Origin: Pseudomonadota bacterium
Lineage (GTDB): Bacteria; Pseudomonadota; Alphaproteobacteria; SHVZ01
DNA length: 64,000 nucleotides
Assembly (NCBI GenBank): GCA_016195085.1
Contig: JACQAG010000031.1
Location: 1-64,000, forward strand
Reading direction: 5' to 3'
This document shows positions 1-2,489 of the stretch, one piece after another. How positions within the stretch are numbered: the stretch's first letter is position 1; each line of letters begins with the position of its first letter. The translations under genes were made by a program, and so were the position numbers. Under the pieces are notes generated by a model. It was given only the letters and a program-made list of their open reading frames with translations. It was not told where the DNA came from and ran no database searches.

Positions 1-166
1 CCTACCGGATGGGAGTCGGTAGGGAAACCACGGCGCAGTTTCAGCGCGACGGCCGGGACCATCTAGCCTACCGGATGGGAGTCGGTAGGGAAACCACGGC
101 AGCTTGGATCGCGCCTCGACAGGAGACAGCAGCCTACCGGATGGGAGTCGGTAGGGAAACCACGGC
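1..166. CRISPR. CRISPR-like array end: three identical repeats at 66-base period
   Basis: Three perfectly identical 34-base units lie at 1-34, 67-100 and 133-166. The second and third are preceded by a shared AG, so the repeat is probably 36 bases with 30-base spacers (35-64 and 101-130); the first is cut by the window edge. The spacers do not resemble each other. Each repeat contains the inverted arms CCTACCG and CGGTAGG around a 9-base loop, followed by GAAACCACGGC. A 36/30 geometry is usual in class 2 (type II, V, VI) arrays; that assignment is inference. No cas gene lies within the window, so any would have to be upstream. Because 66 is a multiple of three, an open frame also runs through the repeats, so a short tandem-repeat coding region is the main alternative. 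Confidence 0.6.
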
Positions 167-167
167 G

Positions 168-212
168 GTAGCGTCACGTGACAGTCCTTCAAGGACTGTC
201 ACGTGACGCTAC
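168..212. repeat. 45-base perfect palindrome next to the repeat array
   Basis: Arms of 22 bases (168-189 and 191-212) are exact reverse complements around a single central C at 190. Each arm contains the sub-palindrome GTCACGTGAC. The palindrome begins one base after the last array repeat. It could act as a strong bidirectional transcription stop for the array, be a protein-binding cruciform, or be a fold-back assembly artefact. There is no T-run, so a classical intrinsic terminator is not shown. Confidence 0.8.
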
Positions 213-251: not shown

Positions 252-408
252 TCAGCGCCACGCCTTCCGCTCATCCGCGACACGGGAAGCGGCATCGACG
301 CCCTGCCACAGCTCCTTGCCGAGGCCGCGCAGCCCGGGAATCGAGAGCGCTGCGCCCGTCTCCAGCGCCTGGGCACGCAACACGGTGACTACCTCAGCGA
401 TCGAGCGG
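252..408 (-). pseudogene. Antitoxin C-terminal remnant (copy 1)
   Basis: On the minus strand a frame ending at the stop 252-254 encodes a tail containing GLRGLGKELWQGVD and ending DERKAWR. This kind of tail is common in antitoxins paired with PIN-domain toxins, a family call made from memory. No start codon or N-terminal DNA-binding part is present, and the frame runs directly into the glycosylase remnant on the other strand, so it is a fragment. A second copy in opposite orientation lies at 1807-1899, so the two form an imperfect inverted repeat around the toxin-antitoxin genes. Confidence 0.45.
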
Positions 409-585
409 CTCGTCGCCCATCCCTTCCGCCATGGCGCGCTTTACTACCTGAAGCGGCCGCTCTGGCTCGCCGACAGCTATCATTGCTCGCGTTACAACAC
501 CAACACCGTGCGGTTGACCGAGGCGATGTTCGCCGCGGTGCTGGCAAATTTGAGGTCGATGCTGATCGGATCAGCCGACCATCAG
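409..585 (+). pseudogene. Uracil-DNA glycosylase C-terminal remnant (copy 1)
   Basis: The plus-strand frame encodes HGALYYLKRPLW, then SYHCSRYNTNT and RLTEAMFAAVL. This matches the C-terminal block of family 5 (UdgB-like) uracil-DNA glycosylases, where the HPS-type loop is followed by NTNTGRLT. Only about 59 residues are present. The Fe-S and catalytic N-terminal parts are missing, and the conserved G before RLT is V here. A second, more decayed copy of the same block lies at 1303-1380 in the same orientation. The fragment is not expected to be active. Confidence 0.5.
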
Positions 586-624: not shown

Positions 625-924
625 TCAGCTCGATACGGGAGACGCGCGGAGCCGGAGGCCGAGTGCGCGAACCACCTTCAGCACTGTGCCGAGTTCCGGA
701 TTGCCCTCGGGCGAAAGCGCCTTGTACAAGCTCTCGCGCCCCAGCCCGGCCTCGCGGGCGATTTCAGCCATCCCCCGAGCACGCGCGATATTGCCGAGCA
801 CGGCCGCGATCACTCCGGGGTCGCCGTCAGCCAGAGCCGCTTCCAGATAGGCGGCGATATCCTCAGGGGTCTTGAGCAGCGTCGCATTGTCATAGCGCGT
901 CGTTCGGACTCTTTTGCGCGCCAT
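625..924 (-). CDS. Addiction module antidote (HigA-like antitoxin)
   Basis: This 99-residue protein resembles the putative addiction module antidote family (HigA-type, Cro/C1 helix-turn-helix). The opening with YDNATLLKTPEDIAAYLEAAL, about residues 10-30, is typical. The helix-turn-helix follows near residues 50-75 (MAEIAREAGLGRESLYKAL). It should neutralise the toxin encoded just upstream (942-1232, 17-base gap) and repress the shared promoter. Toxin-before-antitoxin order is the HigBA arrangement. Full length for the family, so the pair is probably functional, although it sits in otherwise decayed DNA. Confidence 0.85.
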   Translation of the reverse strand: MARKRVRTTRYDNATLLKTPEDIAAYLEAALADGDPGVIAAVLGNIARARGMAEIAREAGLGRESLYKALSPEGNPELGTVLKVVRALGLRLRASPVSS

Positions 925-941
925 AGCACTCTCCCAAATCC

Positions 942-1232
942 CTAAAGTTCGCGAGCCAATACCTGAGCCCGCTTGATGTCTCGGGCTTGGGTTTTCTTGT
1001 CGCCGCCGATCAGCAGGATCGCCACATGCCGACCCTGCTGTTTGAAATACACTCGGTAGCCGGGACCATAGTCGACGCGCATTTCGCTGATGCCGCCGCC
1101 CACGGACCTCACGTCGCCGGCGAGCCCGAGAGTCAGGCGATCGATCCGCACCTGGATCCGGGCCCGCGCTGGTCGATCGCGAAGTCTACCGAGCCATGCC
1201 GCAAAAGCCGGCGTCTGGCGAACTTCCATCAC
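942..1232 (-). CDS. Addiction module killer protein (RelE/HigB-like toxin)
   Basis: This 96-residue protein belongs to the RelE/ParE superfamily, in the putative addiction module killer group. It opens with FAAWLGRLRDRPARARI, has a middle GISEMRVDYGPGYRVYF, and a C-terminal ILLIGGDKKTQARDI, the usual conserved blocks including the late G-G-D-K-x-x-Q. Members are usually ribosome-associated mRNA interferases; activity here is inferred. It is first in a two-gene operon with the antitoxin. A palindrome starting 9 bases upstream of the ATG is a likely autoregulatory operator. Confidence 0.85.
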   Translation of the reverse strand: MMEVRQTPAFAAWLGRLRDRPARARIQVRIDRLTLGLAGDVRSVGGGISEMRVDYGPGYRVYFKQQGRHVAILLIGGDKKTQARDIKRAQVLAREL

Positions 1233-1302: not shown

Positions 1303-1380
1303 GAGTTCCTCGTCGCCCACAGCGATCACTACTAGCGCTACAACACGAATACCGGGCGGCTGAAACAGTATCGATTGTGA
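1303..1380 (+). pseudogene. Uracil-DNA glycosylase remnant (copy 2)
   Basis: The frame reads EFLVAHSDHY, then a TAG stop at 1333-1335, then RYNTNTGRLKQYRL and a second stop at 1378-1380. RYNTNTGRL is the same block seen in the copy at 409-585, here with the conserved G kept but the gene interrupted. The two copies are in the same orientation on either side of the toxin-antitoxin operon, which suggests duplication or insertion within an original glycosylase gene followed by decay. Confidence 0.4.
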
Positions 1381-2015: not shown

Positions 2016-2489
2016 CTACTCCTTCGACTTCTCGCGCATGAGCCTCGCCTTGTCGCGCTGCCAATCCTGCTTCTTCAGGTGCTCGCGCTTGTCGCCTCGC
2101 TTGCGCCCCTTGCCGAGGCCGAGCTCGACCTTGGCGATGCCGCGCTCGTTGAAATAGATCGACAGCGGCACCAAGGTCACGCCCTCGCGCCGGATCGAGC
2201 CCAAGAGGCGATCGCGCTGGCGACGGTGGACCAAGAGCTTGCGCGCCCGCCTCGGCTCGTGATTGAAGCGGTTGGCGGCGCGGTATTCCGGCACATAGGC
2301 GTTGATGAGGTAGAGCTCGCCGTCCTTCTCCCCGGCATAGCTCTCGTTGATCGAGGCTTGGCCGGCGCGGAGCGACTTCACCTCGGTGCCGCTCAGCATG
2401 ATGCCGGCTTCGATCGTGTCGAGGATCTCATAGTCGAAGCGGGCGCGGCGGTTCTGCGCCGCCAGGCGGGCGGCGGGATCGCGAGCCAT
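2016..2489 (-). CDS. smpB: SsrA-binding protein SmpB
   Basis: A 157-residue protein, standard length for SmpB, the partner of tmRNA in trans-translation that frees stalled ribosomes and tags the incomplete peptide. Family blocks seen are [18 protein letters not shown], the GTEVKSLR segment, the INAYVPEY block and the basic C-terminal tail ([15 protein letters not shown]). The ATG at 2489 gives the expected short N-terminus. It lies 32 bases downstream of dapA on the same strand and may be cotranscribed with it, an arrangement common in Alphaproteobacteria. Confidence 0.97.

Follow-up and report, generated by a model that had tools for sequence, protein, structure and literature searches.

A contig edge in an alphaproteobacterial genome very probably holds the oldest-spacer end of a type II-C CRISPR array

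The window analysed here comprises 64 000 nt, i.e. bases 1–64000 of contig C31 (JACQAG010000031.1) counted from its left end, in a genome of 4.8 Mb and 95 contigs, and its first 166 bases raise the question of which CRISPR-Cas system, if any, a short run of repeats cut by a contig edge belongs to. The run contains three exact repeats and two 30-nt spacers with start-to-start spacings of 66 and 66, the repeat being AGCCTACCGGATGGGAGTCGGTAGGGAAACCACGGC (36 nt), of which the first copy in the window is without its first two bases. The two spacers are dissimilar to each other, and the repeat had 0 matches at ≤3 mismatches in dinucleotide-shuffled versions of the window. The exact repeats and the shuffle control thus bear out the three identical units at a 66-base period with dissimilar 30-base spacers that were reported in a preliminary description, and the internal stem noted there was recovered as 7–8 bp on folding of the repeat.

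Genome-wide, the repeat was found nine times with 0 mismatches, three copies opening C31 at its left edge and the other six lying at the right edge of contig C83, and the nine copies with their 30-nt spacers, one of which occurs twice, form a CRISPR array. C83 terminates inside the array one base past a repeat, that base being C, whereas the first spacer of C31 begins with G; therefore at least one spacer is missing between the contigs, and the joined array comprises no fewer than 9 repeats and 8 spacers. The proposed extension upstream, with a search for cas1/cas2 and a large RuvC/HNH protein, led to cas9, cas1 and cas2 adjoining the repeats of C83, so the cas genes do lie upstream of the array as predicted, though on another contig. 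The spacer present twice lies near both array ends, in the window as the last one on the far side (101–130) and on C83 as the second from cas2 (L010 17116–17145); it is either a true duplication or a possible sign that the array was misassembled.

Table 1. Features of the array, the cas operon and their surroundings. L010 positions lie on contig C83.
Feature	Position	Strand	Basis or remark
UDG (uracil-DNA glycosylase), full copy	L010 7714–8385
UDG 3′-end remnant	L010 9077–9128	same orientation
UDG 3′-end remnant	L010 12403–12451	same orientation
Anti-repeat	L010 12577–12599	minus	upstream of cas9
cas9 (1030 aa)	L010 12649–15741	+	profile search
cas1	L010 15717–16616	+	profile search
cas2	L010 16623–16955	+	profile search
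Array start on C83	L010 17014		directly after cas2
CRISPR repeat, 34 of 36 nt, remainder cut by contig edge	window 1–34	− (crRNA sense)	sequence reading, genome-wide repeat count
Spacer GCAGTTTCAGCGCGACGGCCGGGACCATCT (+ strand letters), 30 nt	window 35–64	−
CRISPR repeat, 36 nt, exact	window 65–100	−
Spacer AGCTTGGATCGCGCCTCGACAGGAGACAGC (+ strand letters), 30 nt	window 101–130	−	same as second spacer of C83 part
CRISPR repeat, 36 nt, exact; “extra” repeat, crRNA-upstream (oldest-spacer) end	window 131–166	−	orientation from anti-repeat
Perfect 22-bp hairpin, adjoining the extra repeat on its crRNA-upstream side	window 168–212	−	folding, z −11 and z −8
UDG 3′-end remnant, 90% identical to full C83 copy	window 402–545	+
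HI1420-type antidote	window 625–924	−	profile match
Gp49-like protein	window 942–1232	−	profile match
UDG 3′-end remnant	window 1313–1363	same orientation
smpB, conserved backbone gene beyond the locus	window 2016–2489	−

All three Cas proteins scored well above the profile cut-offs: Cas9 with TIGR01865 (613 bits, cut-off 100) and also with Pfam HNH_4 and RuvC_III, Cas1 with TIGR03639 (cas1_NMENI, 278 bits), and Cas2 with TIGR01573 (79 bits). By family, Cas1 belongs with the NMENI Cas1 proteins, as a distant match. The Cas9 catalytic residues were assigned by motif, i.e. LDLGIGS (D23), IELARD (E498), IDHILP (H581) and HHALD (H723, D727), the last with the HH-x-x-D pattern, and a protein with RuvC and HNH domains and these predicted catalytic residues is what a type II system would be expected to encode. 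The Cas9d profile (NF049971) was rejected, as the score stayed below its cut-off (162 vs 375 bits). No further cas1 was found in the genome, and neither csn2 (II-A) nor cas4 (II-B) occurred next to the operon, where only the gap within the array is unseen. The interval between cas2 and the array is too small for another gene, cas9 is flanked on its other side by GntR and transporter genes, and beyond the array lie a toxin-antitoxin pair and smpB. Because cas9, cas1 and cas2 stand without csn2 or cas4 by the operon, the subtype is II-C, and the class 2 assignment originally drawn from the 36/30 layout proved right.

The only strong partial copy of the repeat near the locus (L010 12577–12599) is identical in 22 of 23 positions to the minus strand of the repeat and, as an anti-repeat should, corresponds to the 5′ half of the repeat on that strand. 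A TTGACA lies before it and, further along the minus strand, the predicted tracrRNA contains a GC-rich hairpin; the repeat:anti-repeat duplex has a calculated energy of −52.6 kcal/mol, consistent with the tracrRNA and anti-repeat of a type II system. Ten homologous alphaproteobacterial loci showed the same layout with the anti-repeat at a nearly equal distance, their anti-repeats giving 20–25 matches out of 26 and mostly tracking the variation of their own repeats; a permutation test of this pairing (0/20000) ignores the relatedness of the loci and is taken as support only. From the position and match of the anti-repeat, we infer that the crRNA would be read from the minus strand, towards the cas genes. 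With the crRNA set on the minus strand by the anti-repeat, the window holds the oldest-spacer end of the array, so the array end stated earlier to be in view is indeed there, as its crRNA-upstream end. A hairpin over the end of cas2 (L010 16948–16989) recurs, with differing loops, at most of the homologous loci and plausibly serves as a terminator where the cas operon and the array converge.

That the repeats are instead a tandem repeat within a gene, or some other non-CRISPR repeat, draws on nothing beyond the shortness of the stretch first seen, and it is practically negligible as an explanation: the spacers are unlike each other yet equal in length, cas9-cas1-cas2 lie directly beside the array, and the anti-repeat of the tracrRNA matches the repeat. 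None of the refuting conditions set in the preliminary description holds: upon checking, the unit was not found to lie in a coding gene, and both further repeats and cas genes were present. A different objection is that the repeats on C31 form a second array in trans, with a locus of its own, rather than the end of the C83 array, in line with the occurrence of repeats on two contigs and of one spacer common to both parts; we count it against our own explanation that no read or contig spans the join. Both array pieces, however, are located at contig ends in matching orientations. The last backbone gene of C83 is UDG and the first of C31 is smpB, and these two are adjacent and convergent in several relatives (e.g. 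G003, G005, G006, G022, G033), in the same relative orientation as here, and 3′-end remnants of UDG occur, genome-wide, only near these two contig ends. On the grounds of the UDG-smpB adjacency and of the remnants, C83 and C31 are very probably neighbours, broken within the array, and a second array is very unlikely. We thus hold with high confidence that window positions 1–166 are the crRNA-upstream (oldest-spacer) end of a type II-C array split over the right end of C83 and the left end of C31.

The array, genes, anti-repeat, active-site motifs, hairpin and locus synteny were read directly, giving on the + strand the proposed order of tracrRNA gene (itself on the minus strand), cas9, cas1, cas2, array and a putative guide-sequestering hairpin. 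On the model of established II-C biology, the repeat-spacer units would be transcribed from the minus strand, with promoters that probably lie within the repeats, the tracrRNA would pair with the 5′ part of each repeat, and the duplex would be trimmed by the host RNase III; Cas9 would then cut spacer-matching DNA beside a PAM, and Cas1-Cas2 would insert new spacers at the cas2-proximal end.

II-C arrays acquire new spacers at their last repeat, and an extraneous crRNA can arise from the first; one of the published ways to counter this crRNA is a hairpin in which its guide is sequestered (PMC12080349). By the paired-guide criterion taken from the same study (PMC12080349), 22 of the 25 nt before the extra repeat (131–166), the would-be extraneous guide, are paired in the hairpin at 168–212, which by analogy may mask this guide, and would thereby keep transcription entering the first repeat from giving a useful extraneous crRNA. 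Strong hairpins of other sequence were found at the same place in two related Tistrella-type arrays (L100, L101), and L101 and L102 each have a base change in the extra repeat, which likewise agrees with the published work. The hairpin sequence is unique in the genome and was not conserved in the relatives read. A role as terminator was rejected, there being no T run after it, and Rfam matches to microRNA families, far below the gathering score, were taken as chance.

Whether the hairpin has to do with crRNA control at all bears on the hairpin alone and not on the identity of the array. It might instead be pictured as a DNA recombination site or as a protein-binding palindrome left by an insertion, since its inner part GTCACGTGAC is palindromic itself, a T run is absent, and the nearby UDG remnants show a rearranged junction. 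This reading is a serious contender, albeit the less probable one, as such hairpins occupy precisely this position in II-C systems (PMC12080349), nearly all of the guide is paired, and the two Tistrella-type loci have strong hairpins of differing sequence there. Masking of the extraneous guide is accordingly the function that we favour.

The system is an ordinary, complete-looking type II-C system of a known kind, not a new one. The gene order, the 66-base period, a near-identical repeat and the minus-strand anti-repeat upstream of cas9 are shared with alphaproteobacterial II-C loci L020, L021, L022, L023, L024, L099, L101, L102, L103 and L088/L100 (Tistrella mobilis plasmid pTM3), from which the locus differs in its spacers and in a Cas9 that is 43–70% identical to theirs; the perfect 22-bp hairpin was seen in this genome only, among those read. 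Because close variants of the repeat sit at these homologous loci, the repeat, which the preliminary description had not recognised, is not of an unknown kind. The close relatives of this Cas9 (43–70% identity) are scattered over the Alphaproteobacteria, and none occurred in six genomes sampled from the same family, a distribution which would fit gain of the locus by transfer. The EHCas9 system from the El Hondo metagenome likewise has cas9-cas1-cas2, 36-bp repeats at a contig end, a tracrRNA upstream of cas9 and alphaproteobacterial relatives (PMC10281378), the likeness being one of anatomy, with 1070 aa in EHCas9 versus 1030 aa here; EHCas9 was tested to have an NGG-type PAM (PMC10281378). 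Solved structures labelled Cas9 (best chains 9ar4, 8jtj and 6kc8) are homologous to this Cas9 over nearly its full length, as distant relatives, and match its C-terminal part, the seat of PAM recognition, weakly. The locus adds one compact alphaproteobacterial Cas9, together with its tracrRNA and repeat, that might be useful in PAM surveys, and a clean example of II-C array polarity with a putative extraneous-guide-masking hairpin, leaving existing knowledge unchanged.

No convincing protospacer was found in phages, plasmids, viral contigs, the own genome or relatives. Viral contigs contained no exact match to the 20-nt PAM-proximal seed of any of the six unique spacers, and the spacer at 35–64 had neither a match there (20-nt seed) nor a second one in its own genome. 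A concatenated spacer query against the own genome matched the array alone, i.e. no self-targets; with the contiguous array sequence as query, phages and plasmids yielded one homologous array, of Tistrella, and otherwise nothing but fragments at chance level (E about 1 to 6), and relatives yielded only other arrays.

The series of UDG remnants is a more unusual observation than the CRISPR array. Relatives have UDG and smpB side by side, but here the interval from one to the other contains an Hpt gene, an amino-acid ABC transporter together with a GntR regulator, the CRISPR-Cas locus and a toxin-antitoxin pair, all bracketed by degenerate copies of the UDG 3′-end (80–94% identical), and no integrase was seen in the bracketed modules. 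Tentatively, and as a rather unlikely scenario, the four modules may have accumulated serially at the UDG 3′ end, each leaving a remnant, in which case defence and accessory cassettes would have inserted repeatedly at the end of the UDG gene. The probable toxin-antitoxin pair lies on the minus strand directly beyond the CRISPR array (window 625–1232), and is flanked by an inverted repeat of ca. 95–122 nt with 79–81% complementarity (window 257–379 and 1779–1900).
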